From assembly GCA_949295465.1 (NCBI GenBank), contig CASFKY010000006.1:1-54423 (forward strand): a stretch of DNA of 54,423 nt, written 5' to 3'. The notes under the pieces are model-generated. The model was not told the DNA's origin. It saw nothing but the letters and a program-made list of their open reading frames with translations, and made no database searches. Shown here piece by piece: positions 1,628 to 42,329 of the stretch. The position numbers and the translations under genes were made by a program. The DNA is from an uncultured Oscillospiraceae bacterium. Its GTDB lineage: Bacteria; Bacillota; Clostridia; Oscillospirales; Ruminococcaceae. How positions within the stretch are numbered: the first letter of the stretch is position 1; each line of letters opens with the position of its first letter.

Positions 1628-2563
1628 TCAGACCAGACGGCCCTCCGGGTCCTTGCCGGCAAACACATCCAGGATGTTCTGGCAGCCGATCTCCGACACC
1701 CGGATGGAGGCCTCCCGGGTGGTGGGGGCGTAGTGGGGGGTGATGATCAGGTTGGGAATCTCAAACAGGGGGCTGCCCTCGGGCACCGGCTCGGGATCGG
1801 TCACGTCCAGCCCGGCGCCGGCCAGCCGGCCGCTTTGCAGGGCATCTACCAGGGCGTCCTGCTCCACCATGGGGCCGCGGGCGCAGTTGAGCAGGATGGC
1901 GGTGGGCTTCATGAGGGCGATCCGCTCCCGGTTGAGGATGTGGCGGGTCTCGTCGGTGAGGTTGCAGTGGAGGGAGACCACGTCGCTCTGGCGCAAAAGC
2001 CCTTCCAGATCATAGGTGAGCTCTACCCCTTCGGGGGCCGACTGGATGTAGGGGTCATAGGCCAGCACCTTCATCCCGAAGCCGCCCGCGCACATGTGGG
2101 CAAAACGGGTGCCGATATGGCCCAGGCCGATGATGCCCACCGTCTTGCCTGCCACCTCCATGCCGGGGGCGCTGTTCTTGGCGGCAAAGCCGATCTGGGC
2201 ATAGGCCCGGCTCACCGGGATCAGATTCTTGGCCAGGGCCATCATCAGTGCAAAGGTGTGCTCGGCCACGCTCTGGCTGTTGGACCCCACGGCCAGGGTC
2301 ACCGGGATGCTCCGGCGCTTGCAGTACTCGATGTCGATGTTGTCATAGCCCACGCCGTGTTTGCTGATCACCTTCAGGTTCTTGGCGGTGGAGAGCAGGG
2401 CCTCATCCAGGTCGATGATGCGCACGAACACCGCGTCGGCGTCCACGATCTCCCGTCGGATGATGTCCATATCCCGGTCGGCAAATACCAGCTGATGGCC
2501 GGCAGCCCGCAGCAGGTCAGGCCCGACAGGGTGTACGTTTTCGGTTACCAGAATTTTCGCCAT
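1628..2563 (-). CDS. D-isomer-specific 2-hydroxyacid dehydrogenase (PGDH-like)
   Basis: 311-residue cytosolic NAD(P)-dependent oxidoreductase interconverting a D-2-hydroxy acid and its 2-keto acid. The Rossmann signature is GIIGLGHIGTRF (about residue 143 on), with the family's catalytic Arg in NCARGPMVE, Glu in DPEPVPEG and His in TPHYAP. The N-terminal substrate-binding segment carries SKHGVGYDNID. It is shorter than a full serA product with an ACT domain, so it could be a hydroxypyruvate/glyoxylate reductase or phosphoglycerate dehydrogenase-like enzyme; the substrate cannot be read from sequence. The ATG at 2563 has GGAAAGGAAGG upstream. It has its own promoter (2617-2645) and lies head-to-tail with the thrS leader, so it is a separate transcription unit. 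Confidence 0.9.
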   Translation of the reverse strand: MAKILVTENVHPVGPDLLRAAGHQLVFADRDMDIIRREIVDADAVFVRIIDLDEALLSTAKNLKVISKHGVGYDNIDIEYCKRRSIPVTLAVGSNSQSVAEHTFALMMALAKNLIPVSRAYAQIGFAAKNSAPGMEVAGKTVGIIGLGHIGTRFAHMCAGGFGMKVLAYDPYIQSAPEGVELTYDLEGLLRQSDVVSLHCNLTDETRHILNRERIALMKPTAILLNCARGPMVEQDALVDALQSGRLAGAGLDVTDPEPVPEGSPLFEIPNLIITPHYAPTTREASIRVSEIGCQNILDVFAGKDPEGRLV

Positions 2564-2616
2564 GAAAGTGCCTTCCTTTCCAAAACAGAGAGTAGAGGGT
2601 ATAAAGAGCTGATATG

Positions 2617-2645
2617 ATTATAGAATGGTTATAAATCAAAGTCAA
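2617..2645 (-). promoter_or_regulatory. Promoter of the hydroxyacid dehydrogenase gene
   Basis: TTGACT (2645-2640), 17-bp spacer, TATAAT (2622-2617) on the minus strand, about 54 bp ahead of the ATG. Confidence 0.8.
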
Positions 2646-2754
2646 CCAAAAGGGGCACAAAAGGAAAAAATCCAGAAAAAAAGAGGCGTTTTCTTGGAAT
2701 TCCAGAAAAATCAAAGCGAAAACCATAAGCAAAAGATAATGATAATATTAACAA

Positions 2755-2781
2755 ACGCAGAGGGCAAAACGCCCTCTGCGT
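2755..2781 (-). terminator. Terminator downstream of corA-like gene
   Basis: Perfect 11-bp stem ACGCAGAGGGC / GCCCTCTGCGT around a five-base loop, followed on the minus strand by TTTGTT. It lies 13 bases past the stop codon at 2794. Confidence 0.8.
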
Positions 2782-2793
2782 CAAAAAATACCA

Positions 2794-3744
2794 TCAAAAA
2801 TTTCCCCACTTCTTTTTGCTCACAAAGAACAGCGACACCACAATGCTGAGCAGCAGCGACAGGCAAAGGATGATGGTGAACCCGTGGGGATCGGTGGAAA
2901 AGGGCATCCCCTCGGTGGAGACATTCATGCCATAGGCCGAGAAGATCATGGTGGGCACCGACAGCACGATGGTGACAATGGCCAGCACCTTCATCACAAT
3001 ATTCAGGTTGTTGGAAATAATGGAGGCGTAGGCGTCCATCATGCCGCTGAGAATGCCGCTGTAGATGTTGGCCATCTCGATGGCCTGGCGGTTTTCCACG
3101 ATGACATCTTCCAGCAGGTCGGCATCCTCGGGGTATTGCTCGATCCGATCAGTCTTGAGCAATTTCTCCAGCACCACCTCGTTGGAGCGCAGGGAGGTGG
3201 TAAAGTAGACCAGGCTCTTTTCCAGCTCCATCAGCTCAATGAGCTCCCGGTTTTGGGAAGAGGCGTGGAGTTTGCGCTCCACCACATTGCTCTGCCGGTC
3301 GATCAGGCGCAGGTACTGCAAATACCGGGTGGCGTTGCGATACAGAATCTGCAAAATAAGCCGGGTCTTCATGTGGGTGCTGAAGATCCGCTCTTTTTTG
3401 CCCTTGAAGAAGTCCAGCACCGGGGTGTCTTCCAGGCAGACGGTGATCACCGCCTCCTGGGTGAGCAGGATACCCAGCGGGATGGTTACATACCAGTTCT
3501 TGCCGTTGCGCTCCTCCACCGTGGGAATATCCACCAGAATCAGGGTGTAATTGTCCTCCACCGACAGGCGGGACCGCTCCTCCTCGTCCAGGGCGGCCCG
3601 CAGATCGTCCGGGTCGATGCTGTAGCGGCGGCTGATGGTGGCCAGCTCCGGCTCGATGGGCTTGATCAGATTGATCCAGCAATCCTTCTCCGGCTTCTCG
3701 ATGGCGCGGGTCTCCCCCTCAAAGGTCTTATAAATTTTGATCAT
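2794..3744 (-). CDS. corA: CorA family divalent cation (Mg2+) transporter
   Basis: 316-residue inner-membrane pentameric channel of the CorA/MIT family. A long cytosolic N-terminal domain rich in charged helices (to about residue 250) is followed by two C-terminal membrane helices; the first ends in the defining loop signature YGMN (SAYGMNVS), and the protein ends in a short basic tail KKKWGNF. Length is typical. The ATG at 3744 has AAGGAGG nine bases upstream. Transported ion (Mg2+ versus Co2+/Ni2+) is by family only. The gene is monocistronic, with a 324-bp upstream region that contains a promoter and a structured, terminator-containing leader, suggesting control by attenuation. Confidence 0.93.
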   Translation of the reverse strand: MIKIYKTFEGETRAIEKPEKDCWINLIKPIEPELATISRRYSIDPDDLRAALDEEERSRLSVEDNYTLILVDIPTVEERNGKNWYVTIPLGILLTQEAVITVCLEDTPVLDFFKGKKERIFSTHMKTRLILQILYRNATRYLQYLRLIDRQSNVVERKLHASSQNRELIELMELEKSLVYFTTSLRSNEVVLEKLLKTDRIEQYPEDADLLEDVIVENRQAIEMANIYSGILSGMMDAYASIISNNLNIVMKVLAIVTIVLSVPTMIFSAYGMNVSTEGMPFSTDPHGFTIILCLSLLLSIVVSLFFVSKKKWGNF

Positions 3745-3892
3745 ATGGTGTACCTCCTTGACACGCCGCAGAAAGCGGGTGCCGGCAGAGGCGCACGCTT
3801 TTTGCAGCTAAATCATTCTACTTCGTCCGGGATCGGCGTCCAAGAATGTTCAGCTCCTTTCGGTAAGAATAGGTTGGCCCTTATTGCGGGGC

Positions 3893-4003
3893 AATAAAAA
3901 CCTGCGAAAAAAGGGATACTTTTTCCGCAGGGGGTCACAAAAAATCGGGCGGGCAAGAGGGCCCCGGCGGCAGGTACGGTACCGCGGGGAAAAAGGCCTT
4001 GCC
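3893..4003 (-). ncRNA. Structured leader RNA with intrinsic terminator ahead of corA-like gene
   Basis: Fills most of the 324-bp gap upstream of the CorA gene. On the minus strand, just after the promoter, GGCAAG (4003-3998) pairs with CTTGCC (3957-3952), enclosing CCCCGCGG...CCGCCGGGG with a small GGTAC/GTACC apex. Then comes a terminator-like hairpin with arms CCTGCGGAAAAAG and CTTTTTTCGCAGG (3931-3901) and a TTTTTATT tail (3900-3893). A terminator about 150 bases before a start codon is the layout of an attenuated leader or of a small RNA. I do not recognise an M-box or other named riboswitch class. Confidence 0.55.
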
Positions 4004-4011
4004 TCTTTTTT

Positions 4012-4041
4012 ACTATACCACGGTAAAAAGAGGTAAGTCAA
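4012..4041 (-). promoter_or_regulatory. Promoter for the corA leader transcript
   Basis: TTGACT (4041-4036), 18-bp spacer, TATAGT (4017-4012) on the minus strand, placing the start of transcription at about 4005, at the base of the structured leader. Confidence 0.72.
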
Positions 4042-4068
4042 GCCGAACGACTGCCAAAAAAGAACGGA

Positions 4069-5859
4069 TTAAACGTGCTTTTTTAGGGCATTCCACAGGG
4101 TGGAGCGGCTGATGCCCAGCCGGGCGGCGCTGCGGCTCTGGTTGCCTCCCTCTTCCTGGAGCACCAGGCGGATCACGTCGTACTGAATCTCGCTGAGCGG
4201 TTTGCGCAAATCCAGGACTGCCCGGCCCGGCTGGGAGGCCGTACCGGGTCCGGGAGCCTCCTGGCGCAGCAGTCGGTCTACCTGCTCCTCCCCGATGTAG
4301 GGGGTGCGGGCCTCCACCACCAGAGCCCGGGCTACCCGGTTGAGCTGGGTGAGGTTGCCGGACCAGTCGAATTCCACCATCCGGCGAAGAGCACCGGGAG
4401 TAAAGCCCACCACCTGCTTGCCCAGGGAGACGTTCAGCTGGTTCACATACAGTGCCAGCAGGTTGGGGATGTCTTCCTGCCTTTGGCGCAAGGGCGGGAT
4501 GCGCAGCAGCAGGGTGGAAAAATGGTTTTTCAGATACCGGCAGGCATAGTCGTTTTCGCTGTGGGAACCGTCCAGAAGGGCGGAAAAGATCATTCGGGTG
4601 CGCCGGTCAAGCCGGGTGTTCTCCATGTACTCAAAAAGAGAATGGGCCTGTTCGGAGGAGAGAAAATTCACGTTTTTGATGTAAAAGCCCAGCCCGGAAC
4701 GCAAGAAGGGGGAATCCTCACTGGAAAGCAGCTGTTTCCACCGCTTTTCACAGATCACTTGACAGTCCAGGGTGACCAGGGCCGACCGGGAAGAGCCGCT
4801 TTTGCACAGCTGAAGAGCCACCCGGTCCTTGCCGGTGCCCTCTTCCCCCAGAATCAGGACGGGGAAGGGGGCGGCGGCACAGGCGGCAATGGCCTCGCCC
4901 AGTTCGCCCACGCAGATGGGGCCGGGCGCCAGCTGTAAATCGATGCTCTGAAAGTCCCGGCAGCCCAGCATGGAGATCCCTTTTTCCTGGATCAGCAGGG
5001 AGCGGCTGTGCTTTTTCAGGCACAGAGCCGACGCTGTGCCCTGTTCGGTGCGCACCGGCCGGCCGGATACCTGCCAGTAGGTCCCGTTCCACTCCCACTC
5101 GGCCTCAAAGGGAAGCTGCTGCGCACAGGAGAGATGGGAGCGGAGCATTTCCAAAAAAGGCGCGTGTTCCTCGTCCTGGGGCAGGGTGGCGTATTGCAGA
5201 TTTCCATCCGGGCCGAACACGGCCAGCTCATCCCACTGTATGGCGAAAAGCTGGCGATACAGCTCGTCTTGGTAAGAAAAGCGTTTTTGGGCTTTGATGA
5301 TTCGCACAGCCTCATCCAATGCGTCCGAAACACTTTTTTCGCCTGAGGTGATCAGCATGGAATTCAGCCCCAGCTCTTCGGCATTGTGCTGGGAGATGTT
5401 GTCACAGAGGATCATGTTGCAGCCCTCGCCCTTCAGCCGCAGAAGTTCCTTTTTGATGTCGCTGTCATTGTGGATGGTGCAGACCGTGACATCATATTGC
5501 ATCAGTTCCGAGAGCTGCATGGCACATTCGGTGATATTGGGATGGCCCATCACCGCAAACTTGCCGGTGTAGTTCTGGGCGTTTTTCAGGCTGCAAAGCA
5601 TGTCGTAAATGGATACGCCGATCTCCACCACCGGCACATCCGCAGCCTGGCGCAGGGCGCGCGCGGTGCCGCCCCGGGAAATGATCACATCATAAGAAGA
5701 GGAGGGGACGCTCTGCAATGCCTGCCGCCAGGTAGGCAGGCTGGCCACGGCCGTGATCAGTTCCAGCTCAGGACGCTGGGCTGCCAGCTGTTGGATGATG
5801 CGCTCCAGGCCGGGATAGGGGGTGATGGCCAGAATTCGAAATTTGGGAAACAGCGCCAA
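4069..5859 (-). CDS. PrpR_N-domain transcriptional regulator with degenerate AAA+ domain and Fis-type HTH
   Basis: 596-residue one-component regulator. Residues 7-190 form a PrpR_N sensor (ISRGGTA near 60-66, GHPNITE near 105). A PAS-like segment follows (about 200-290), then a sigma54-activator-type AAA+ domain with Walker A GEEGTGKD (338-345), LRIPPLRQRQEDI (452-464) and WSGNLTQLNRV (499-509), and a Fis-type helix-turn-helix at the C-terminus (NQSRSAARLGISRSTLW). The GAFTGA loop that touches sigma54 is absent and Walker B is eroded, so it probably works as an ordinary DNA-binding regulator. I chose the TTG at 5859 (AAAGGAGA at 5874-5867, seven bases upstream) over the ATG at 5901, because the minus-strand -10 at 5909-5904 would put the transcript start downstream of that ATG. 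It is divergent from, and likely controls, the lactonase/permease/dehydratase operon. Confidence 0.85.
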   Translation of the reverse strand: MALFPKFRILAITPYPGLERIIQQLAAQRPELELITAVASLPTWRQALQSVPSSSYDVIISRGGTARALRQAADVPVVEIGVSIYDMLCSLKNAQNYTGKFAVMGHPNITECAMQLSELMQYDVTVCTIHNDSDIKKELLRLKGEGCNMILCDNISQHNAEELGLNSMLITSGEKSVSDALDEAVRIIKAQKRFSYQDELYRQLFAIQWDELAVFGPDGNLQYATLPQDEEHAPFLEMLRSHLSCAQQLPFEAEWEWNGTYWQVSGRPVRTEQGTASALCLKKHSRSLLIQEKGISMLGCRDFQSIDLQLAPGPICVGELGEAIAACAAAPFPVLILGEEGTGKDRVALQLCKSGSSRSALVTLDCQVICEKRWKQLLSSEDSPFLRSGLGFYIKNVNFLSSEQAHSLFEYMENTRLDRRTRMIFSALLDGSHSENDYACRYLKNHFSTLLLRIPPLRQRQEDIPNLLALYVNQLNVSLGKQVVGFTPGALRRMVEFDWSGNLTQLNRVARALVVEARTPYIGEEQVDRLLRQEAPGPGTASQPGRAVLDLRKPLSEIQYDVIRLVLQEEGGNQSRSAARLGISRSTLWNALKKHV

Positions 5860-5878
5860 AAAAACATCTCCTTTGATA

Positions 5879-5895
5879 TGTATGAAATTTATACA
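5879..5895. promoter_or_regulatory. Palindromic operator candidate 1 (TGTAT-N7-ATACA)
   Basis: TGTAT at 5879-5883 and ATACA at 5891-5895 with an AAATTT-containing centre. It lies just downstream of the predicted regulator transcript start (about 5897) and upstream of its ribosome site, a position suited to autorepression. Confidence 0.6.
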
Positions 5896-5903
5896 GTACA
5901 TAG

Positions 5904-5909
5904 ATTATA
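5904..5909 (-). promoter_or_regulatory. -10 element of the PrpR-like regulator promoter
   Basis: Perfect TATAAT on the minus strand; the -35 region 17 bp further upstream is only weakly conserved (T-rich), consistent with a weak or activated promoter. Confidence 0.55.
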
Positions 5910-5949
5910 TCATAAATTGAATGAAAATAAAACACATAAATATATAAAA

Positions 5950-5966
5950 TGTATAAAAATAATACA
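5950..5966. promoter_or_regulatory. Palindromic operator candidate 2 (TGTAT-N7-ATACA)
   Basis: Same arms and same seven-base spacing as site 1 (TGTAT 5950-5954, ATACA 5962-5966). The centre lies 71 bp from that of site 1 and about 63 bp upstream of the predicted start of the rightward operon. Confidence 0.62.
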
Positions 5967-5985
5967 AAAACGGCCTCAAAAATTC

Positions 5986-6014
5986 TTGTTGGGGAAAGGC
6001 TGTATGTATATAAT
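5986..6014 (+). promoter_or_regulatory. Promoter of the lactonase/permease/dehydratase operon
   Basis: TTGTTG (5986-5991), 17-bp spacer, TATAAT (6009-6014). This is a vegetative-sigma promoter; no GG/GC -24/-12 element is visible, in line with the regulator lacking GAFTGA. Confidence 0.72.
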
Positions 6015-6071
6015 ATGAACATACAAAGGGGCGGATTGCGGATGCCCCCGAGAGAGAAAGGAAAAGGCGCT

Positions 6072-6791
6072 ATGAAAATCGATCTGTTGACCAAAGTGTT
6101 TCCCGGCAAATCCAGCGCAGGCGCCCTGGGCCTGAGCACCTGTGTGTTGATCCAGACGCAAGGCAGAAAAATTTTGTTTGATACCGGCGCTCATGGGGTG
6201 ATCAAGATCCTGCAGAAGTCCTTGCAGGATCTCAAGGTCGATCCCGGTGAGATCGACACGATCTTCCTCAGTCACCTGCATTATGACCATCTGAACAATG
6301 TGGCCTGTTTCCCCAATGCGCAGATTCTTTGCGGGAAAAGGGAATGGGAATACGCCACCACCCAGCGGGATGAGTGGACCCCCCTGGAGAGCATCCTGTA
6401 TCTTCAGAATCAGCGCAATGTGAGACTGGTGGAGGACGACGAGGAGATTTTCCCGGGTATGCGGGCGCTCTGGGTGCCGGGGCATACCCCCGGGCAGATG
6501 GCCCTGGCTATCGAGCAGGAACAGGGAATCCTGGTGCTGGCCGGAGATTCGGTGAAAAACCGCAGTGAGCTGGAACTGGAATTTTCCGATCAGTATGTGG
6601 ACCAGAAGGCCAGCACCGAGAGCATCCGGCGCATCAAAAAAATGGCTTATAAGGTATTGCCGGGCCATGACGGCTATCTGCTGATCCGAGAGGGGAAGGT
6701 CATCCCCCAAGAGGAGCTGAGCCTGGAGATCTTTTTGCCCCGAGGCTGTACAGACGGAGACAACGGCACGTATCACCTGCGGTGCCGCTGA
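6072..6791 (+). CDS. Metallo-beta-lactamase-fold hydrolase, N-acyl-homoserine-lactonase-like
   Basis: 239-residue soluble metallohydrolase. The dinuclear Zn motif HLHYDH is at residues 68-73, with further metal ligands in the GHTPGQ and AGDS segments and GHDG near the C-terminus, the arrangement seen in AHL/gamma-lactone lactonases of the MBL superfamily. A lactone substrate fits the downstream sugar-acid-type dehydratase, but that is inference; this fold also covers thioesters and phosphoesters. The ATG at 6072 follows AAAGGAAAAGG; an in-frame ATG at 6042 is possible but lacks a site. First gene of a rightward operon, 33 bp ahead of the permease gene, and divergent from the PrpR-like regulator. 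Confidence 0.85.
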   Translation: MKIDLLTKVFPGKSSAGALGLSTCVLIQTQGRKILFDTGAHGVIKILQKSLQDLKVDPGEIDTIFLSHLHYDHLNNVACFPNAQILCGKREWEYATTQRDEWTPLESILYLQNQRNVRLVEDDEEIFPGMRALWVPGHTPGQMALAIEQEQGILVLAGDSVKNRSELELEFSDQYVDQKASTESIRRIKKMAYKVLPGHDGYLLIREGKVIPQEELSLEIFLPRGCTDGDNGTYHLRCR

Positions 6792-6824
6792 CCGAAAACC
6801 CAAAAAAGCAAAAAGGAGGAAGAC

Positions 6825-8129
6825 ATGAGTACCGTAGTGATGATTCTGGGAATTGTGGTGGCATTTTTGCTGCTGGGCTACATGTGCATGAAAGGATGGA
6901 GCATCTACATCTCTGCTCCCCTGTGCGCTCTGATTGTGGCGGTTACGTCGGGGATGAATCCTCTCAGCGCCATCGTGGACAGCTTTTTGCCCGGCACCGG
7001 GGAATACTTGGCCCAATGGTTCGGGCTGTTCATGCTGGGGGCGCTGTTCGGCAGGATTATGGAAACCTCCGGCGCCGCGGCTTCGATTGCCCACTCGGTG
7101 ACCCGGGTGATCGGCGCCCACAATGCCTGTCTGGCGGTGATTCTGGCCACCAGTCTGATGACATACGGCGGCATCAGCCTGTTTGTGGTGGTTTTTGTAA
7201 TGTATCCCTTTGCGGTGGGGCTTTTCCAGGAGGCGGACCTGCCCAAAAGGCTGCTGCCCGGCTGTATCGCCACCGGCGCGTTCAGCTTTACGGCGATTGC
7301 CCTGCCCGGCTCTCCTCAGAACCAAAACGTGCTGCCCACTACCTATTTTGGCACTACACCCACGGCTGCCCCTGTTTTGGGCCTGATTGTGGCCGCCTAC
7401 ATTCTGGTGACCAGTGTCCTGTATATGAACTGGAGAGCCCGCCAGGCAAAGGCCCGGCTGGAACACTTTGTACCCAATGAGAAGGACCTGGCCATCATGG
7501 AGGCCAACAAAAATCAGCAGCTGCCCCATATCATTTCCTCCCTTTTGCCCCTGGTGGTGGTGATCTGCACCATCATCTTTGTGGGCTGGGATACGATGGT
7601 CTGCCTGTTGATCGGTATTCTTCTGGCGATCGCGCTCTTCTTCCCCCGGCTGAAGGGGAATTTCAAAGAGACCATCAACCAGGGCGCGCTGAACTCCACT
7701 GCCGCCATCATGAACACCTCGCTCACAGTGGGCATGGGTGCGGTGATCAAGGCGTCTGCTGCCTTTACCATCATCACCGAGGCCATTGACAAACTGTCGC
7801 AGGGCAACGGTCTTGTCTATGAATTCATCTCCATCAATGTGCTGGCCGGCGTGACGGGTTCCGCCTCCGGCGGTCTGAGCATTGCGCTGACCACCCTGTC
7901 TGACCGGCTGCTGGCCACCGGGATCAACCCCGAAATCCTGCACCGGGTGGCGGCAATCTCTGCCAACGGCCTGGATTCCATGCCCTGGTGCGGTGCGGTC
8001 ATGACCATGTTCGCGGTATGCGGGCTGACCCACAAGGATTCCTACAAGGATGTGGCGGTGGTGAATATTGCCATCACCATGAGCGGTGCTGTTCTGGCAA
8101 TCATTCTGGGCTCCATGGGCGTGTGCTGA
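6825..8129 (+). CDS. GntP-family permease
   Basis: 434-residue integral membrane transporter with about a dozen hydrophobic segments across its length. Segment and loop features (TYGGISLFVVVFV near residue 107-120, PGSPQNQNVLPTTYFGT near 165-182, TGSASGGLSIALT near 345-357) place it in the GntP gluconate/sugar-acid:H+ symporter family of the ion transporter superfamily. It probably imports an organic or sugar acid that the neighbouring enzymes process. The ATG at 6825 has AAAAAGGAGGA upstream. It follows the MBL gene after 33 bp; the next gene begins after 94 bp, with an additional promoter in between. Confidence 0.88.
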   Translation: MSTVVMILGIVVAFLLLGYMCMKGWSIYISAPLCALIVAVTSGMNPLSAIVDSFLPGTGEYLAQWFGLFMLGALFGRIMETSGAAASIAHSVTRVIGAHNACLAVILATSLMTYGGISLFVVVFVMYPFAVGLFQEADLPKRLLPGCIATGAFSFTAIALPGSPQNQNVLPTTYFGTTPTAAPVLGLIVAAYILVTSVLYMNWRARQAKARLEHFVPNEKDLAIMEANKNQQLPHIISSLLPLVVVICTIIFVGWDTMVCLLIGILLAIALFFPRLKGNFKETINQGALNSTAAIMNTSLTVGMGAVIKASAAFTIITEAIDKLSQGNGLVYEFISINVLAGVTGSASGGLSIALTTLSDRLLATGINPEILHRVAAISANGLDSMPWCGAVMTMFAVCGLTHKDSYKDVAVVNIAITMSGAVLAIILGSMGVC

Positions 8130-8145
8130 GAGGATACCGCATAGC

Positions 8146-8173
8146 TTGATTCCGGCCTTTGCAGGATTATAAT
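8146..8173 (+). promoter_or_regulatory. Internal promoter ahead of the split UxaA genes
   Basis: TTGATT (8146-8151), 16-bp spacer, TATAAT (8168-8173). An inverted repeat GGCCTTT (8154-8160) / AAAGGCC (8178-8184) straddles the -10 and may be an operator or a weak hairpin. Confidence 0.55.
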
Positions 8174-8223
8174 GGTAAAAGGCCTGCTTTGGGATAGAAA
8201 ATGCGAAGAAAGGGAACGGTTCC

Positions 8224-8496
8224 ATGCTCAGAAGAAGTTTGATGATCAACCCGGCCGATTCGGTGGTCTGCCTGCTGGAAGACGCCCAAAAAGGAGATAC
8301 CGTCAAGACCCCGGCGGGTGAGACGATCACATTGCTGGAAGATATCGAATTTGCCCACAAAGCCTGTATCAAAGATCTGAAAAAAGGCGACCCGGTGTAC
8401 AAGTACGGGGAGGAGATCGGGTATATGCTCGCCGATGCCCCCAAGGGCACCTGGATCCACAACCACAACATGGACTGTGACCGGGGAAAAAAATAA
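8224..8496 (+). CDS. UxaA-family hydro-lyase small subunit (SAF domain)
   Basis: 90-residue protein matching the N-terminal SAF-type domain of altronate/galactarate dehydratases, ending in the typical GTWIHNHNMDCDRGK. In E. coli UxaA this domain is fused to the catalytic part; here it is a separate gene, as in two-subunit UxaA-like enzymes and in (2R)-sulfolactate sulfo-lyase SuyA. It acts with the large subunit encoded 30 bp downstream. The ATG at 8224 follows GAAAGGGAAC; an in-frame ATG at 8242 is an alternative. The substrate (sugar acid versus sulfolactate or another 2-hydroxy acid) cannot be decided from sequence. Confidence 0.87.
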   Translation: MLRRSLMINPADSVVCLLEDAQKGDTVKTPAGETITLLEDIEFAHKACIKDLKKGDPVYKYGEEIGYMLADAPKGTWIHNHNMDCDRGKK

Positions 8497-8526
8497 GAGA
8501 ACACTGCACATAAAGGAGAGAAAGAA

Positions 8527-9765
8527 TTGGGATATACATTTATGGGGTATCGCCGCCCGGATGGCAGGGTGGGCACCCGAAACTACCTGGCGGTGATCCC
8601 CTCGGTTTTCTGCGCCAATACCACCGCTCAAAAGATAGCGGCCCGGATCCCGGGGGCGGTGGCCCTGCCCCACTGCGTGGGCTGTTCCCAGGTGGGGCTG
8701 GACCTGGAGCTGACCGCCCGCACCCTCAAGGCCATGGGCTGCCATCCCAATGCGGGGGCAGTGCTGGTAATCGGGCTGGGCTGTGAGCGATTTGACCCGC
8801 AGGAGCTGTACGATGCCATCAAGGCTACCGGCAAACCTGTGGCAAAGTTTGTCATCCAGGAAGAGGGCGGTGTGACCAACACGGTGGCCCGGGCGGTGGA
8901 GGCCGGCAAAAAATTTGCCGAGCAGCTGACCCGGCAGCAGCGGGTGGAATGCCCGTTGGGAGAGCTGATGATCGCCACCAAGTGCGGCGGTACCGACGCC
9001 ACCAGCGGCCTGGCCGCCAATCCGGCAGTGGGCAAGATGGTGGATAAAGTGATTGCCGAGGGAGGCAGCGCCATTCTCAGCGAGCTGAATGAGCTGCTGG
9101 GCACCGAAAAATACCTGGCAAAGCGGGCGGTCAACCCCCAGGTGGCACAAAAAATCTATGACGCCATCTATGAAATTGAGGATGTGCTGCGGGGCGGGCT
9201 GGATTTCAGCCTGCCGGCCAATCGGAACCACCTGATCAGCCGGGGCAACTTTGACGGCGGGGTCAGCAGCGTGGTGGAAAAGGCGCTGGGCGGCATCCAC
9301 AAATCCGGCACCGCGCCTATCCAGGATGTGCTGCCCTATGCGGTCCCGCCCCGCAAAGATCAGAAAGGGCTGTTCCTGATGGACTACGAGAGCCAGGACG
9401 GCGAGGTTGTCACCGGCATGATCGGCTGCGGCTGCCAGGTAGTGGCTTTTACCACCGGGCGCGGCCATGCCACCGGGCACCCGCTGGCGCCGGTGCTGAA
9501 GATCACCGGCAACTATAAAACCTATGCCAGCATGCGGGAGTGCTTCGATTTCGACGCCAGCGGCGTGATCAGCGGAGAAAAAACGCTGGATGAGCTGGGA
9601 GCGGAATTGCTGGATTTGGTGATCCGGGTGGCCAGCGGCCAGCAGACCGCCGCCGAGAAATTGGGCGGCACCGAGCTGTTCTGCGTGGCACGCCGGCACG
9701 GCTACCACCGCAAGGACCCGGAGGAGCTTCGCCGGCATGCCCGGGAATGTGGAGAGTGCCCGTAA
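8527..9765 (+). CDS. UxaA-family hydro-lyase large subunit
   Basis: 412-residue catalytic subunit of an altronate-dehydratase-type lyase that eliminates from a 2-hydroxy/sugar acid, probably with a bound Fe. Family hallmarks: GYRRPDGRVGTRNYLAV at the N-terminus, PHCVGCSQVG, LVIGLGCE, IATKCGGTDATSG and CGCQVVAFTTGRGHATGHPL; conserved Cys residues are present. I chose the TTG at 8527 because AAAGGAG lies eight bases upstream; the ATG at 8542 would sit too far. Last gene of the operon, closed by a strong terminator at 9774. Equally plausible names are altronate/galactarate-type dehydratase and sulfolactate sulfo-lyase beta (SuyB-like). Confidence 0.88.
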   Translation: MGYTFMGYRRPDGRVGTRNYLAVIPSVFCANTTAQKIAARIPGAVALPHCVGCSQVGLDLELTARTLKAMGCHPNAGAVLVIGLGCERFDPQELYDAIKATGKPVAKFVIQEEGGVTNTVARAVEAGKKFAEQLTRQQRVECPLGELMIATKCGGTDATSGLAANPAVGKMVDKVIAEGGSAILSELNELLGTEKYLAKRAVNPQVAQKIYDAIYEIEDVLRGGLDFSLPANRNHLISRGNFDGGVSSVVEKALGGIHKSGTAPIQDVLPYAVPPRKDQKGLFLMDYESQDGEVVTGMIGCGCQVVAFTTGRGHATGHPLAPVLKITGNYKTYASMRECFDFDASGVISGEKTLDELGAELLDLVIRVASGQQTAAEKLGGTELFCVARRHGYHRKDPEELRRHARECGECP

Positions 9766-9773
9766 AGGCGGAA

Positions 9774-9806
9774 GGGGAAATGTCCCGTGGGACATTTCCC
9801 CTTTTT
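9774..9806 (+). terminator. Terminator of the UxaA-type operon
   Basis: 13-bp perfect stem GGGGAAATGTCCC / GGGACATTTCCCC with a two-base loop and CTTTTTG tail, starting 8 bases after the stop codon. Confidence 0.92.
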
Positions 9807-9818
9807 GAGTGCAGAAAG

Positions 9819-9847
9819 CAGACAAACCGCCCCAAATTTTGTATAAT
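9819..9847 (+). promoter_or_regulatory. Promoter of opine-dehydrogenase-like gene
   Basis: TATAAT at 9842-9847 with a poor -35 (CAGACA, 9819-9824) at 17-bp spacing, downstream of the operon terminator. Confidence 0.55.
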
Positions 9848-9904
9848 ATACTCAGAGCCCATAAAGGCAACAAAGCAAGATCAAAGAGAAAGGAAGCTGT
9901 ACAT

Positions 9905-10939
9905 ATGAGATTTGCCGTGATCGGTGCGGGCAATACCGGCAAGGCGGTGGCCGCGTATCTGAAAAAGGAAGGGCAGGAAGTCGTGCTCTACTGCCGCAAT
10001 CCCCAGCTGGCCCAGCAGCTGTGCCAGGAGGGCCTGAGCGCCCAGGGCGCGGTGGAAGGTCACTTTGAGGTGAAGGCCACCAGTGATCTGGCCGAGGCGG
10101 TGCGGGATGCCCAGGTGATCCTGGTGCAGACGGTGGCCTCCGGGCATGCGCCGGTAGCTCAGGCCCTGAAAGGCCTTTTGCAGCCCGGCCAGATCATTCT
10201 GATTTTCAACGGCAACTGGGGCGCCGCCGAGTTTGCGGCCATCCTGGGCCAGGAGGCCAAGGAGAAAAAGGTGGCCATCTGCGAGACCGGCGCCCAGCTG
10301 TTTTTGTGCGCTTCGCCCACGCCGGTTTCGGTGAATGTGCGGACCATCAAGCAGGGCATTGCCCTGGCCTGCACCGAGACGGCCCGCACCGGCGAAGTGA
10401 TGCAGACCCTGAAGGAGGCCTTCCCCCAGCTGACCCCCGGCAGCAATGTGGTGGACACCTCTCTGAACGGCTCCAACCCGGTGGTGCACGGCCCCATTGC
10501 CACCTTCAACATTACCCGGCTGGAAAACGGGGAGGACTACACTCTTTTTGGCACCGCCCTGCCCCAGAAGACGGTGGAGTATATCGAGCACATCGACGCA
10601 GAACGCTGCGCGGTGGCCGAAGCTGTGGGAGTCAAGAGCATTTCGGTGCTGGATATCCTGAACAGCTTCTGGCCGGATAAAAAGACCAGTGTGTACGGGG
10701 CCCTGAAGGAGAACAAGGCCTATGAGGCCACCCCTGGCCCCAAGAGCCTGAAACACCGCTACCTGGATGAGGATCTGCCCTACGGCCTGGTGCCTCTGGT
10801 GCGGCTGGGCGATGTATACGGGGTGGATACCCCCTATCTGGACGCGCTGATCCGGGTGCTGGGGCTGTACCTGGGCCGGGATTATCTGAAAGAGGGCCCG
10901 GCGGTGGAGACCTTCAATTTCAAGGAGCTTCTGGGCTGA
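9905..10939 (+). CDS. NAD/NADP octopine/nopaline dehydrogenase family protein
   Basis: 344-residue oxidoreductase. The N-terminal Rossmann domain begins MRFAVIGAGNTGKAV (GxGxxG at residues 7-12); the C-terminal opine-dehydrogenase domain carries the conserved His in NPVVHGPIAT. The family links amino acids and keto acids reductively or runs the reverse reaction; ketopantoate-reductase-like enzymes share the N-terminal part, but the C-terminal half argues for the ODH group. The ATG at 9905 follows AAAGGAAG. It has its own promoter and terminators on both sides, so it is linked to, but transcribed apart from, the UxaA-type operon. The real substrate is unknown. Confidence 0.85.
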   Translation: MRFAVIGAGNTGKAVAAYLKKEGQEVVLYCRNPQLAQQLCQEGLSAQGAVEGHFEVKATSDLAEAVRDAQVILVQTVASGHAPVAQALKGLLQPGQIILIFNGNWGAAEFAAILGQEAKEKKVAICETGAQLFLCASPTPVSVNVRTIKQGIALACTETARTGEVMQTLKEAFPQLTPGSNVVDTSLNGSNPVVHGPIATFNITRLENGEDYTLFGTALPQKTVEYIEHIDAERCAVAEAVGVKSISVLDILNSFWPDKKTSVYGALKENKAYEATPGPKSLKHRYLDEDLPYGLVPLVRLGDVYGVDTPYLDALIRVLGLYLGRDYLKEGPAVETFNFKELLG

Positions 10940-10968
10940 AAAACGCGAAATACGGCTGAAAACCGGGG

Positions 10969-10998
10969 GCGGGCGCCGGCAGGGCGCCCGCTCTTTTT
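10969..10998 (+). terminator. Terminator of opine-dehydrogenase-like gene
   Basis: Stem GCGGGCGCC / GGCGCCCGC with loop GGCAG, followed by TCTTTTT. Confidence 0.85.
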
Positions 10999-11038
10999 GC
11001 CGCCTGTGGAAATTTTTTGAGATTTTTTCAAAAACCTC

Positions 11039-11067
11039 TTGCATTCTGGGGAAAGCTGTGATAAAAT
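11039..11067 (+). promoter_or_regulatory. Promoter of tRNA-Val
   Basis: TTGCAT (11039-11044), 17-bp spacer, TAAAAT (11062-11067), 13 bp before the tRNA. Confidence 0.75.
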
Positions 11068-11079
11068 AATTTTCGTTGC

Positions 11080-11156
11080 GGAGGCTTAGCTCAGCTGGTT
11101 AGAGCACCTGCATCACACGCAGGGGGTCTGGGGTTCGAGTCCCTAAGTCTCCACCA
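11080..11156 (+). tRNA. tRNA-Val (anticodon CAC)
   Basis: 77-nt cloverleaf with encoded CCA: acceptor GGAGGCT / AGTCTCC, D arm GCTC...GAGC, anticodon stem CCTGC / GCAGG with loop ATCACAC, anticodon CAC at 11114-11116 reading GTG (Val), T loop TTCGAGT. The gene sits at the left edge of an AT-richer insert, a common integration target. Confidence 0.96.
11149..11156 (+). repeat. Possible left direct repeat (tRNA 3' end CTCCACCA)
   Basis: The eight bases ending the tRNA recur at 13345-13352 at the far side of the AT-rich insert, also followed by a terminator. Short, so only suggestive of an old attachment-site duplication. Confidence 0.3.
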
Positions 11157-11161
11157 TACAG

Positions 11162-11211
11162 AACAAATCCGAACCTTATGCCGATTGGTGATGGGTTCGG
11201 ATTTGTTTTTT
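11162..11211 (+). terminator. Terminator after tRNA-Val
   Basis: 14-bp stem AACAAATCCGAACC / GGTTCGGATTTGTT with T run. Confidence 0.88.
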
Positions 11212-11230
11212 ATATAGTATAAACACGGAA

Positions 11231-11268
11231 AAGCGGCTGAGTGTCCTGCGAGACATTCAGCCGCTTTT
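11231..11268 (+). terminator. Second terminator in the tRNA-Val/insert junction
   Basis: Stem AAGCGGCTGA / TCAGCCGCTT extended by GTGTC / GACAT, loop CTGCGA, then TTTTT. The 272 bases between the tRNA and the next gene hold these two terminators and otherwise nothing I recognise. Confidence 0.8.
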
Positions 11269-11428
11269 TGCATTTTGAGAGAGAGCTTTTGTTCTATCTG
11301 CACATATTTCGTTGTGCGTCTAATAACAAAATGGTATACTGAGTACAACGCAGAGCTGCTTGGCTCTTTGCAGAGGACGATAATTGGTTCCCGCTTTCTG
11401 CAATCGAATTCAGAAGGGAGCGTTTGCT

Positions 11429-12046
11429 ATGTTCTACAGACTAAGTTGGCCTGCAAATGGAAAATTCGCCACATGTGGGCCATACAAACCGTCTTATATC
11501 TCTACTGAACATGACAACTGTCCTTTGTGCGCAAGCCATATTGGTGGTCGTTATTGGGAGCACCCCAGAACACTGGCAATCAATGGAACCCGTTTCCCGG
11601 ATTTCTTATTTACAACGCCATACCCTGCGGTTTCTGAACGATTTGTAGAGCTGTATAAAAGCTCTGGCTTAAAGGGAATCTTGGGATTTGAGGAGATCGA
11701 ACACTATCGCATCCGAAAGACTGCCACGCTCAATCACAAATACTACACTCTTACGGTGATGAGAAGCAAAATGTCCATCAACTACCAAGAGTCTGAACTG
11801 GAATTTGGAAAGACCGAGCACGAGCATTTTTGTCCACTTTGTGATCCCCAACGGAGAACAATAAACGGGATAAAGCGGATGGTCCTCAATGAAGAATGCT
11901 ATGACGGAGAGGACATTTTTAAGCTCTACACAACCGGTAATGCTCTGTATTTGTCAGAAGCGTTTGTGGATTTTGTCAAAAAGAATCATCTCACAAATCT
12001 GGGAATTCGCCCGCTCGATGATTATGAAAAACGCATTGTTCTGTGA
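11429..12046 (+). CDS. Double-CxxC protein, SitI6-like immunity candidate
   Basis: 205-residue soluble protein with two CPLC motifs (Cys31/34 and Cys135/138), about 104 residues apart, in two halves of similar design. That spacing and the N-terminal context resemble the double-CXXCG family that includes the Myxococcus SitI6 immunity proteins, though the fifth position is A or D here, not G. If so it would neutralise a polymorphic or contact-dependent toxin; no toxin gene lies next to it. The ATG at 11429 has AAGGGAG upstream. Base composition (near 45% GC by eye) is well below that of flanking genes, indicating acquired DNA. Confidence 0.6.
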   Translation: MFYRLSWPANGKFATCGPYKPSYISTEHDNCPLCASHIGGRYWEHPRTLAINGTRFPDFLFTTPYPAVSERFVELYKSSGLKGILGFEEIEHYRIRKTATLNHKYYTLTVMRSKMSINYQESELEFGKTEHEHFCPLCDPQRRTINGIKRMVLNEECYDGEDIFKLYTTGNALYLSEAFVDFVKKNHLTNLGIRPLDDYEKRIVL

Positions 12047-12088
12047 TCCTTTTCAAAGAGCAGCTGAGATGAACCGGGAGGAAATCCA

Positions 12089-12569
12089 TTGAACAGCACA
12101 AAGTGGAATGAAATATTTACGGTGTTCTATCAGAACGAATGTGACGGAAATATTCCGCTGGTTCGTTGGCGCACAAAAGATTTGGAAACCGGGCTTATCA
12201 GTAATTGGGATGGGTCGTGGACTCATTTCGGATGTGAGCCGAGAAATTGGAGGCACATCGATTATTTGCAGATTGAACTGACTGAGCAAAATCGGGAGTT
12301 TGTGCTACAAGAGCTCAGAAAAATCCGTGTCCCTGGAACCATTTCTAATGGGATAGCAACAATATATGGGTACAGACAGGATATAGATTATATTACCATG
12401 CTTCGCTCCTGTTTTTGAAGAAAGGATCAATGCGGTTGTAGAACATTTTCCCGAGGCCAGTTATAAGAACGGAGTTTTGTGCCTTAGGCTTTCAGCCTTC
12501 GACGCGAACAACCCGGACGATATTGAATACCAACGGATGGTTCACGAGACATTCTGGCAATCTCGATGA
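12089..12569 (+). pseudogene. Small accessory gene broken by a +1 frameshift (DUF6678-like?)
   Basis: Starts at TTG 12089 behind GGGAGGAAA. The first 104 codons (to ATG 12398-12400) read in one frame, then stop at 12416-12418. If one base (C12401) is skipped, the frame continues as TTC GCT CCT GTT and so on, giving FAPVFEERINAVVEHFPE and more down to the stop TGA at 12567-12569, a coherent product of about 159 residues. So this is either a natural frameshift or a sequencing error. The N-terminal part (KWNEIF..VRWRTKDL..WDGSW) reminds me of DUF6678 proteins, often found among immunity genes; that is a weak guess. It follows the double-CxxC gene by 42 bp in the same orientation. Confidence 0.65.
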
Positions 12570-12583
12570 GCGGGTAAATTATC

Positions 12584-13288
12584 ATGACAAAAATAGAAGA
12601 GTTTGAAAACAAACTTATAGCCAACGGGATGTGCAGTGAGGATTTCACAGAGTTGGAAAAACTGCTCAGACGGGTCCACGACAACTTTTTGAAGCTGCAA
12701 CATTGTTATATAACAGCACAGCGATTCCCCAAAGCAAATTATAAACAAGCCATAGATTTGGTTGTCTTTGGCATGGAAACCTATCCCCCTGATAGTTGGT
12801 TCAGCAAATACAGCTGCTATTTATCCATGGGAACGATATATCAAAAAGCCGAGGTTTTTCAAGAGGCTTATGAGGCATACCGAAAGGCCGAAAATATCCT
12901 TGAGACTTCCCTGGATCCCCGCAACTTCGCTTCTTACCAGCAAAGTCTGGCCTTGGATCTGTTTTGGGTGAAGCTCCACATGGATGATTTTCAGTATTCG
13001 CCCGAACTGGAGAAATATTATAATATTGCCCTCGAGGACAGCAAATTTGCCCGGGCTTTTCTTGGCCATAGATTTCGCTCGGCGGTTGCCGAAATAATCA
13101 TTTGTTTGCATTATGCTCAAAAGGACAAAGCAAAAGCAGCATATAAACGAGCGATAGAGCTTTGCGCACCAGGCTACAAAGGGGATTTGTACGAGCTCTT
13201 AAAGAAGCACCGATATACAGAATCTCTTAAGGTGACAGATCAGTGTGCGGCATATTTGAATCGCCTGAGCCATGAGATGAAAACTTAA
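12584..13288 (+). CDS. Hypothetical helical protein (TPR-like)
   Basis: 234-residue soluble protein with no catalytic motif that I recognise. Helix-rich, with TPR-like spacing of aromatic and Ala residues around residues 85-115 (GTIYQKAEVFQEAYEAYRKA) and 175-195 (AQKDKAKAAYKRAIEL). The ATG at 12584 has only a weak upstream site. It lies 14 bp after the broken gene and shares its low GC, so it belongs to the same accessory block. A role as an immunity or adaptor protein is possible but not shown. Confidence 0.6.
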   Translation: MTKIEEFENKLIANGMCSEDFTELEKLLRRVHDNFLKLQHCYITAQRFPKANYKQAIDLVVFGMETYPPDSWFSKYSCYLSMGTIYQKAEVFQEAYEAYRKAENILETSLDPRNFASYQQSLALDLFWVKLHMDDFQYSPELEKYYNIALEDSKFARAFLGHRFRSAVAEIIICLHYAQKDKAKAAYKRAIELCAPGYKGDLYELLKKHRYTESLKVTDQCAAYLNRLSHEMKT

Positions 13289-13344
13289 AACCGCGAGCCA
13301 GGCTGATGATGTCGCAGCCTTCGGGGTAGATTCTCGGCCCCGTA

Positions 13345-13352
13345 CTCCACCA
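13345..13352 (+). repeat. Possible right direct repeat (CTCCACCA)
   Basis: Copy of the tRNA-Val 3' end at the right border of the AT-rich block, directly before a strong terminator; see 11149-11156. Confidence 0.3.
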
Positions 13353-13355
13353 CAA

Positions 13356-13396
13356 AAGCTCCGAATCTGATTTCAGATTCGGAGCTTTTTGTTTTT
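13356..13396 (+). terminator. Terminator at the right end of the accessory block
   Basis: 15-bp perfect stem AAGCTCCGAATCTGA / TCAGATTCGGAGCTT with a two-base loop and TTTGTTTTT tail. Confidence 0.88.
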
Positions 13397-13411
13397 GCAA
13401 AGTGAAGCCAA

Positions 13412-13454
13412 GGGCCGGGGCGGCCTTCCCGCGAGAAGGCTGCCCCGGCCTTTT
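13412..13454 (+). terminator. GC-rich hairpin, second terminator
   Basis: Stem GGCCGGGGCGGCCTTC / GAAGGCTGCCCCGGCC (one mismatch) followed by TTTT. Between it and the LysR stop at 13568 I see no gene. Confidence 0.6.
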
Positions 13455-13567
13455 GGGTTTAAGCCCATCCCATCCGAGCGGGATGGGATGTCGGAGGAGA
13501 AAGAGCAGTATCTCAAAGCAGCACCCGGCCAAAAGTCACCCGTAGAGAGGCCGGGAACCTGCCGGCG

Positions 13568-14461
13568 TCAGGGCTGAGCCCCCAGTTCGGCCCGCATCTC
13601 CTCCACGAATTTTTCGGTGGCCTTGGAAAATACCTGGTATATTTTCCACACCAGGCGGGCTGTCAGCTCAAAGGGCGGCTCCAGCGGGCGGAAACAGAGA
13701 TTGCTGCCCTCGGTGTGGATGAGCTTGTCCAGACAGACCGCGATTCCAAACCCTTCGTCCACCAGAAGAGAGGCGTTGAAAACCAGGTTGTAGGTGGCCA
13801 CCACCTGGAGTCTGGTCACATTCCGCCTCAGCCAGCCGGAAATCTGTTCCTCGGTGCCCTGCTGATGGGAGAGGATCAGCCGCCGCTTCCACAGGTCCTG
13901 GGGGCAGATCGCCTCTTTGCGGGCCAGAGGATCATCCCGCCGCATCAGCACCCCCATCCGATCTCCCAGGGGCAGCTGGATGGACTCGTATTTCTGCGGG
14001 TCCACCTGGGTGTACACCAGGCCCAGATCGATGAGCCCTTTGTCCAGCTGTTCCAGCACAAATCCCGCGTTGCCGCTGGCAATATGATAGCGGATCTGGT
14101 GGCCCCGGCCCTCCAGACGCCGGGCGGCGCGGGCAAGCAGGCGGATGGAGTCTGTCTCTCCGGCCCCGATATACACCTCGCCCTCCACAGCCTCATCACT
14201 CAGAGCAACCTCGCTCTCCATCTTCTGCACCAGGGACAGAATCTCTTCCGCCCGGCGGCGGACAATGAGCCCCTCGTCGGTGAGCTGTACCCGGCGGCTA
14301 CCCTTGGCGCCCCGGATGAGCAGCTGCTTGCCCAGCTCCTCCTCCATCTGGCGCAGCTGAGTGGAGAGGGTGGGCTGGGACAGGTGCAGGGAGGCCGCCG
14401 CCGCAGAGATGTTCTTTTCCCGGGCAACCGCCAGAAAATATTGCAGCACGCGCAGTTCCAT
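13568..14461 (-). CDS. LysR family transcriptional regulator
   Basis: 297-residue LTTR. N-terminal winged HTH at residues 1-60 (MELRVLQYFLAVAREKNISA, LHLSQPTLSTQLRQMEEELG), then a linker helix and a periplasmic-binding-protein-like effector domain (about 90-290). The ATG at 14461 follows CAAGGAG. Divergent from the SDR operon, with a typical LTTR arrangement in the 226-bp spacer: its own promoter overlaps the palindrome that sits at about -65 of the SDR promoter. Therefore likely an autorepressor and co-inducer-dependent activator of the SDR/lipoprotein/flavodoxin operon. Effector unknown. Confidence 0.93.
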   Translation of the reverse strand: MELRVLQYFLAVAREKNISAAAASLHLSQPTLSTQLRQMEEELGKQLLIRGAKGSRRVQLTDEGLIVRRRAEEILSLVQKMESEVALSDEAVEGEVYIGAGETDSIRLLARAARRLEGRGHQIRYHIASGNAGFVLEQLDKGLIDLGLVYTQVDPQKYESIQLPLGDRMGVLMRRDDPLARKEAICPQDLWKRRLILSHQQGTEEQISGWLRRNVTRLQVVATYNLVFNASLLVDEGFGIAVCLDKLIHTEGSNLCFRPLEPPFELTARLVWKIYQVFSKATEKFVEEMRAELGAQP

Positions 14462-14513
14462 GGCTTTCTCCTTGAAAACAGAGGGCGGATGCCTCCGCGT
14501 TGTCTATAAGTGA

Positions 14514-14542
14514 ATTGTAACAGAAAATTCTATAGGTATCAA
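14514..14542 (-). promoter_or_regulatory. LysR gene promoter
   Basis: TTGATA (14542-14537), 17-bp spacer, TACAAT (14519-14514) on the minus strand; its -35 lies inside the LTTR palindrome. Confidence 0.7.
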
Positions 14543-14549
14543 TTATAGA
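14529..14549. promoter_or_regulatory. LTTR binding site (TCTATA-N9-TATAGA)
   Basis: Perfect 6-bp arms, containing the T-N11-A core (ATA-N9-TAT). The centre lies about 66 bp upstream of the predicted SDR transcript start; a further TCTATA half-site is at 14503-14508. Confidence 0.75.
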
Positions 14550-14569
14550 TAAACATATAAACAAGGTAT

Positions 14570-14598
14570 TTGTTATCTTATCTGGCCGGTGATAGAGT
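14570..14598 (+). promoter_or_regulatory. Promoter of the SDR operon
   Basis: TTGTTA (14570-14575), 17-bp spacer, TAGAGT (14593-14598). The weak -10 fits an activated promoter. Confidence 0.6.
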
Positions 14599-14687
14599 AG
14601 AGACAGAAATAAAGGCGGGCAGCAGTGCCGAAAAAGCCGGACCAGCCCGCCAAGGCAATCAAAAAGCAGCACAAAGGAGAAAAGAAT

Positions 14688-17412: not shown

Positions 17413-17853
17413 ATGACCGTCACCCTGCCGGTGAAGGTGCGCTATGCGGAGACCGACCGCATGGGCATCGTCCACCACAAAAATTATCTGGTATGGTACG
17501 AGGAGGCCCGCACCCTGTTTTCCGATCAGGTGGGAATCCCCTACAGCGAGATCGAGAAGATGGGGGTGATGTCGCCCCTGCTGGAATGCGGCTGCCGGTA
17601 TCTGTCCAGCTGTACCTATGAGGACCAGCTGCTGGTGGAGTGCCGCCTGGTAAAGTGTACGCCGGTCCAGTTTGAGTACCGCTACCGGGTGTTCAAGAAA
17701 GGGGAGGAGAAGCCCCTGAACACCGGCTTTACCCGCCATGCCTGGGTGGACGCCAAGACCTTCCGCCCGGTACGGCTGGACCGCCGCCTGCCCCAGGTAT
17801 ACGAAAAACTGCTGGCCAGCTGTGAGCCGGAGGAAGAGAGGAAAAAGCCATGA
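17413..17853 (+). CDS. Acyl-CoA thioesterase, YbgC/4HBT hotdog family
   Basis: 146-residue hotdog-fold thioesterase. Starts VKVRYAETDRMGIVHHKNYL, the 4-hydroxybenzoyl-CoA thioesterase signature with the catalytic Asp (ETDRMG) and YLVWYEEAR. Hydrolyses acyl-CoA thioesters in the cytoplasm; chain specificity unknown. The ATG at 17413 follows AAAAGGAGG. Its stop overlaps the start of the next gene by four bases (ATGA). Confidence 0.92.
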   Translation: MTVTLPVKVRYAETDRMGIVHHKNYLVWYEEARTLFSDQVGIPYSEIEKMGVMSPLLECGCRYLSSCTYEDQLLVECRLVKCTPVQFEYRYRVFKKGEEKPLNTGFTRHAWVDAKTFRPVRLDRRLPQVYEKLLASCEPEEERKKP

Positions 17854-42268: not shown

Positions 42269-42271
42269 GCC

Positions 42272-42313: not shown

Positions 42314-42329
42314 CGGCTTTGGGAGGCGG

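Follow-up and report, generated by a model that had tools for sequence, protein, structure and literature searches.

A predicted hydroxy-acid import and dehydration locus with a split UxaA/GarD-family dehydratase in a Fournierella genome

Locus organisation

The window analysed here is a stretch of 54,423 nucleotides, contig CASFKY010000006.1 (C6) of assembly GCA_949295465.1, from an uncultured Oscillospiraceae bacterium of the gut. Its genome is 84% complete and belongs to the same genus as Fournierella massiliensis. Our subject is an operon encoding a metallo-β-lactamase (MBL)-fold hydrolase, a GntP-family permease and the SAF-type and UxaA-type subunits of a predicted dehydratase, together with a divergent PrpR_N regulator. 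We propose that the locus imports and dehydrates a hydroxy acid. Its principal features are as follows.

1628-2563, minus strand: D-2-hydroxyacid dehydrogenase (Pfam 2-Hacid_dh_C, 203.4 bits)
4069-5901, minus strand: regulator with PrpR_N, degenerate AAA+ and Fis-type helix-turn-helix (HTH) domains, divergent to the operon (Pfam PrpR_N 152.8 against a cut-off of 29.1; HTH_8)
6001-6025: palindrome TGTATGTATATA-A-TATGAACATACA spanning TATAAT, a candidate operator by predicted function
6072-6791, plus strand: MBL-fold hydrolase, 239 amino acids (Pfam Lactamase_B 79.0 against a cut-off of 22.7)
6825-8129, plus strand: GntP-family permease, a divergent member (Pfam GntP 48.6 against a cut-off of 22.5)
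8224-8496, plus strand: SAF-type small subunit, corresponding to the N-terminal part of UxaA/GarD, 90 amino acids (TIGR03248 match)
8527-9765, plus strand: UxaA/GarD-family dehydratase core subunit, TTG start (Pfam GD_AH_C and GD_AH_second)

An earlier note on this DNA had named five genes: the divergent PrpR_N regulator, an MBL protein with an HLHYDH motif, GntP, SAF and UxaA. All are present, with Pfam scores over the cut-offs and, for SAF, the match to TIGR03248; the domain scores of the named genes are far beyond chance. The mechanical open reading frame of the MBL hydrolase opens at 5949; the start at 6072 is preferred, as an AGGA-type site precedes it.

A split dehydratase in a clade of its own

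The core subunit matches GD_AH_C at 262.3 bits (cut-off 26.8) and GD_AH_second at 145.4 bits (cut-off 27.3). The SAF subunit, which has no Pfam match at 0.001, aligns to N-terminal positions 3-79 of the galactarate dehydratase model TIGR03248 (41.4 bits). Judged by these domains, the pair is a UxaA/GarD-family dehydratase split over two genes. Viral contigs scanned with the core subunit held no relative.

An excerpt of PMC6336799 describes four cysteines that are kept throughout the superfamily, sulfolactate sulfo-lyase excepted, and that fit an iron site. An alignment of 49 rows shows C29, C53, C86 and C153 of the window in each of the 46 rows that are not SuyB; all three SuyB rows miss the first three. 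The four would correspond to Cys134, Cys173, Cys208 and Cys276 of that paper, an equivalence drawn from family-wide conservation, as the paper's own protein lies outside the alignment. The SuyB rows were picked by gene context: the Cupriavidus copy has hpsN and hpsO nearby; the Paracoccus copy a tripartite tricarboxylate transporter (TTT), a hydroxyacid dehydrogenase, an Ldh-type gene and an exporter; and the Methylobacterium copy the same dehydrogenase type, an Ldh-type gene and exporters. The SuyAB-SlcC-ComC setting is described in the accessible part of PMC9594981.

In the unconstrained tree the window falls within a 13-row clade (support 100/99) that is separate from SuyB, from E. coli UxaA and GarD (both of which carry a long-branch warning) and from the split Bacillaceae enzymes. 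The clade has a signature, CERF and LI..GN (LIS.GN), that is rare in other rows. R88 of this signature lies two residues past C86, and the sole basic residue at that position in the 36 remaining rows is the K of E. coli GarD. At L236-I237 the other rows mostly carry Q or N, with P in 33 of 36.

The earlier note offered as an alternative that the split enzyme is a SuyAB-like sulfolactate sulfo-lyase, accompanied by a TTT importer and an SlcC-like dehydrogenase. The Paracoccus SuyAB locus has its subunits split and encodes a TTT importer along with a 2-hydroxyacid dehydrogenase, and the window dehydrogenase is 37-41% identical to proteins in the SlcC position. This is little above its 35% identity to the Pelosinus and Halanaerobium dehydrogenases. 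A scan of ten proteins encoded from 1628 to 15458 gave neither an Ldh-type (ComC) protein nor an exporter. SuyB branches elsewhere in the free tree, but an approximately unbiased (AU) test does not reject the window clade and SuyB as sisters (p-AU 0.185). The tree test alone is insufficient, and it is the cysteines that set the window clade apart: all four are kept in the window whereas three are lost in the SuyB references. On this cysteine set we dismiss the SuyAB reading as highly improbable.

An ordinary galactarate/glucarate dehydratase, with the function of GarD, has to be weighed as well. The galactarate dehydratase 6u7l is the only solved-structure relative found for the core subunit (183.5 bits), the basic residue at position 88 is common to the window and GarD, and the Bacillaceae include split enzymes in what looks like a glucarate/galactarate setting. 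Against this, the core subunit scores 225.1 with the TIGR03248 equivalog, whose cut-off of 730.85 belongs to a model built for the fused protein; it is 34% identical to E. coli GarD and lies in a separate clade with signature residues of its own. Nor do the ten locus proteins scanned include GarL, GarK or a ketoglutarate-semialdehyde dehydrogenase. We consider GarD function decidedly unlikely. The SAF-UxaA pair could not be placed in any characterised pathway, and the earlier note knew no named pathway for the combination. No description of this gene set was found in the titles and opening abstract lines of the open-licence papers surveyed, and we know of no substrate for this branch of the UxaA/GarD family.

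Gene neighbourhood across the clade

A three-row alignment scanned against species genomes returned 17 loci, 12 within the clade and 5 outside it. Searching 398 genomes of the phylum with a profile added three strong matches, one of which (G646) duplicates the Halanaerobium locus L079; the others, L098 and L099, were admitted to the clade on their profile scores together with the CERF and LIS.GN signature. The 15 clade loci considered below are thus the 13 tree rows, window included, plus these two, which are not in the tree. Duplicates were counted once (L033 with L072, L034 with L078, L097 with L079), and L037, outside the clade, was left uncounted. Flanks are unequal and several loci end at contig edges, so all neighbour counts are lower bounds.

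SAF adjoins UxaA in 15 of 15 loci. An importer lies near the UxaA-type gene in 11 (TctA in six, counting one in L073 that is cut by the contig end; GntP in three; a DUF401 permease in two). LarA-type nickel isomerases occur in 8/15, IlvD-type dehydratases in 7/15, 2-hydroxyacid dehydrogenases in 6/15 and Octopine_DH in 2/15. A PrpR-type regulator is present in five loci, in one of them (L081) as the C-terminal part only. An intact MBL gene is found in one locus and a stub in another. The set of MBL, GntP and UxaA, which the earlier note had linked in one operon, is therefore not conserved as such; what the survey does find conserved is the SAF-UxaA pair with an importer, and in a third of the loci a PrpR-type regulator.

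The window 2-hydroxyacid dehydrogenase is linked to the locus in both members of the genus, and a protein 58% identical to it is encoded near the UxaA gene of Lawsonibacter (L077). Near the same Lawsonibacter cluster, at 14948-15802 of L077, lies a gene whose 284-residue product matches nothing in Pfam at 1e-8 or in NCBIfam at 1e-20.

In both L080 and L077 the LarA protein scores above the cut-off of NCBIfam nickel-pincer nucleotide (NPN) isomerase group 22 (NF052515), as does the LarA protein adjoining the L099 gene (G736:C17). Across the 398 genomes, 11 of 95 UxaA-type matches have a group-22 match within 8 kb, where about 0.7 would be expected for a uniform 2.8-Mb genome. Only one of these 11 (G736) is among the four window-clade members in that sample, and the link concerns mostly neighbouring branches of the UxaA family. 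The parts of PMC7583248 and PMC12611868 available to us name no link between group 22 and a dehydratase, although supplements such as the gene-context table of PMC7583248 may list one.

Relatives also offer hints of the substrate. The Halanaerobium LarA (L079) scores 325.1 with the malate-racemase family, below the cut-off of 500; its nearest solved structure is Mar2, and it reads HHR where Mar2 has AHK. Malate racemases carry H/Q and K at two selectivity positions and have a side activity on tartrate, according to an excerpt of PMC11770544. The Pelosinus locus (L087) encodes a tartrate dehydrogenase (485.9, over the cut-off of 470.4), and that of a Halanaerobium relative (L098) a malic enzyme. 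Our leading candidate for the substrate, named tentatively and at less than even odds, is a hydroxylated dicarboxylate, for example tartrate or another aldarate.

A swapped transporter block and an optional hydrolase

The window and F. massiliensis (L072) are 83% identical over 1732-5791 and 85% identical over 8206-11156. The stretch between these blocks holds the beginning of the regulator gene, MBL and GntP in the window, and TctBAC in F. massiliensis. At about position 4037 of L072 the regulator gene and tctB abut head to head with no intergenic region, and because both lack their starts the promoter region there has been removed by a deletion or an assembly error. In L073 a 47-codon MBL start, 81% identical to that of the window, stands just after UxaA and stops just before tctB. 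Given the TctBAC swap in the sister species and the stub in L073, GntP, TctABC and MBL appear to be mobile extras attached to a constant core. The window GntP shares only 22% of its residues with that of Pelosinus and 24% with that of RUG075, which suggests that the GntP genes may have been recruited separately, and it scores 45.4 with the gluconate symporter model TIGR00791, under the cut-off of 292.75.

The earlier note had envisaged one dedicated pathway, in which the MBL enzyme acts as a lactonase on an imported lactone or sugar acid and UxaA removes water from the opened product. MBL is indeed the first gene of the operon, its HLHYDH at residues 68-73 satisfies the HXHXDH motif, further His and Asp residues are present, and its nearest solved relatives are N-acyl-homoserine lactone (AHL) lactonases; the L073 stub likewise lies beside UxaA. 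Several observations stand against it. The protein scores 73.2 bits with the AiiA-type equivalog (cut-off 375) and has K162 at the AiiA tyrosine position, three residues past the Asp of the DASY motif. We take that tyrosine to have a role in AiiA. The gene is absent from F. massiliensis in a comparison confined to the locus, and a search of 394 sampled genomes of the order, its own excluded, turned up nothing at E 1e-30 or below. With the gene intact in a single clade locus and replaced in the sister species, a conserved lactonase first step is unlikely, and the predicted MBL step is best regarded as optional and unproven. What finds support in the pathway claim is a unit for hydroxy-acid import and dehydration under a divergent PrpR_N regulator. 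The window encodes another MBL-like protein at 17850-18671 (273 residues; SHGHRDH motif, seen by eye).

A PrpR-type regulator without the sigma-54 contact loop

The Sigma54_activat match of the regulator covers profile positions 12-64 of 168 only, its AAA domain is degenerate, and it scores 110.9 with the PrpR equivalog, far under the cut-off of 499.2. The GAFTGA motif, which (or close variants of which) is needed for contact with sigma-54 according to the part of PMC6615313 consulted, is missing in all three close-clade regulators compared (those of the window, F. massiliensis and L073). The sigma-54 domain is matched in part only in the window and L073 proteins; the regulator next to the UxaA cluster of L080 is complete, with GAFTGA intact. 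Because both Fournierella genomes keep a sigma-54 gene, the loss lies in the regulator.

A sigma-54 promoter was considered and rejected. With one mismatch allowed, there are 97 matches to the -24/-12 pattern where 92.8 are expected by chance, and none falls in 5902-6071.

That intergenic interval holds the palindrome at 6001-6025, whose 12-nucleotide arms are 83% complementary. Allowing up to three mismatches, the window has three matches against 0.39 expected, the one at 6001-6025 being exact since the pattern was taken there. No such palindrome was seen in L073, and its role as a candidate operator is for that reason only a guess.

The end of the operon and its surroundings

The remaining features around the operon are these.

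2794-3744, minus strand: CorA
9774-9806, plus strand: terminator-like hairpin with a T run, 3' of UxaA
9819-9847, plus strand: promoter-like site 5' of the Octopine_DH gene
9905-10939, plus strand: Octopine_DH-family dehydrogenase (Pfam Octopine_DH 128 bits; structure 1bg6, 172.7 bits)
11080-11156: tRNA-Val

The earlier note ended the operon at 9765 and left the Octopine_DH gene unmentioned. That end looks right, because a hairpin (fold z -4.47; L072 counterpart -5.70) and a promoter-like site with both hexamers and the spacing kept in L072 follow it. A consensus scan listed the promoter-like site and did not list the hairpin; promoter-like sites show no clear enrichment there, with 6 in the region against 3.2 +/- 1.9 in shuffles. 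On the strength of the two conserved elements we reject the Octopine_DH gene as an operon member; it is probably a separate transcription unit. A plasmid search with this opine dehydrogenase gave a best identity of 29.8% among the best 40 of 279 matches. The same genome carries a second Octopine_DH-family gene, 41% identical (G000:C43:32115-33074; L100).

Homology to the sister species stops at the 3' end of tRNA-Val (window 11080-13300; L072 9882-10987). Beside it the sister has a phage-type integrase; in the window there is an Imm11-like gene within a stretch of low GC (about 0.44). The tRNA-Val 3' end looks like a used integration site; none of the four direct-repeat families in 11060-15000 holds the tRNA end. 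Farther along, at 39533-46784, tandem genes encode large, similar-looking membrane proteins of 911 and 946 residues followed by one of 593; presumably these resemble YfhO-type proteins.

Proposed function

In our proposal SAF and UxaA are the two subunits of one UxaA/GarD-superfamily dehydratase, probably dependent on iron, which would take water from a 2,3-dihydroxy acid to yield a 2-oxo-3-deoxy acid. The acid would be imported by GntP, or by TctABC in the sister species. The divergent PrpR_N protein may sense this acid or a relative of it and switch the operon; because its GAFTGA loop is lost, it probably acts in the sigma-70 manner, with the palindrome that spans the -10 box as a possible site of action. 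In relatives LarA or a 2-hydroxyacid dehydrogenase may set or read the configuration at C2, a part that the window dehydrogenase at 1628-2563 may take in Fournierella. The MBL hydrolase would be an addition peculiar to this lineage, with a possible role in opening the substrate when it comes as a lactone or in some other ester-like form. To this explanation as a whole, a hydroxy-acid import and dehydration unit with a split UxaA/GarD dehydratase under PrpR_N control, we assign a probability of about 0.7.

Several points weigh against it. LarA and IlvD genes are both missing from the locus in the window, and searches of the two Fournierella genomes, of which the window's is the incomplete one described above, gave no Lar_N protein; IlvD and DHDPS proteins are encoded elsewhere in both. 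The genus is represented in the comparison set by two genomes only, the window's and F. massiliensis An912 (G012). The substrate hints stem from relatives at about 52-65% identity and not from Fournierella, and the Pelosinus neighbours (by eye, a 2-oxoacid oxidoreductase and SucCD) could equally fit conversion of a C5-C6 acid to 2-oxoglutarate. The AU test allows the union with SuyB. The predicted reaction rests on family membership, and to our knowledge no member of the clade has been characterised.

A bolder extension is that the 15-locus clade forms a new dehydratase subfamily within an epimerise-then-dehydrate pathway for hydroxy-dicarboxylates. Group-22 isomerases, or in Fournierella the 2-hydroxyacid dehydrogenase, would supply the right C2 stereoisomer to UxaA, and the IlvD-type enzyme would dehydrate the other isomer. 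The importer would be an exchangeable module, and the PrpR_N regulator would have left sigma-54. We regard this extension as rather doubtful.

Taken as a whole, this is a commonplace type of acid-catabolic locus whose dehydratase belongs to an uncharacterised clade. Its interest lies in that clade, which marks a branch of the UxaA/GarD family with a testable partner list; in a pointer from the unassigned NCBIfam LarA group 22 to sugar-acid dehydratases; and in a regulator without the sigma-54 contact loop, which gives a view of how a sigma-54 activator loses its partner but keeps its locus.

Comparison with known systems

Among LarA-family nickel isomerases, group 22 is a neighbour in several relatives of the window dehydratase, in contrast to the two Fournierella genomes. 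The regulator shares the PrpR_N sensor and Fis-type HTH of PrpR-type sigma-54 activators and differs from them by its degenerate AAA core and missing GAFTGA. With the (R)-sulfolactate sulfo-lyase SuyAB the window enzyme has the two-subunit layout in common, and some of its relatives have a TTT importer and a 2-hydroxyacid dehydrogenase nearby; it differs in its cysteines, and no sulfonate genes were seen at the window locus. Closest is the UxaA/GarD superfamily of altronate, galactarate, idonate and arabinonate dehydratases, with which the enzyme shares GD_AH_second, GD_AH_C, the four cysteines and the SAF-type N-terminal part. From these it is distinguished by its division into two genes, its distinct clade and its own CERF and LI..GN positions.

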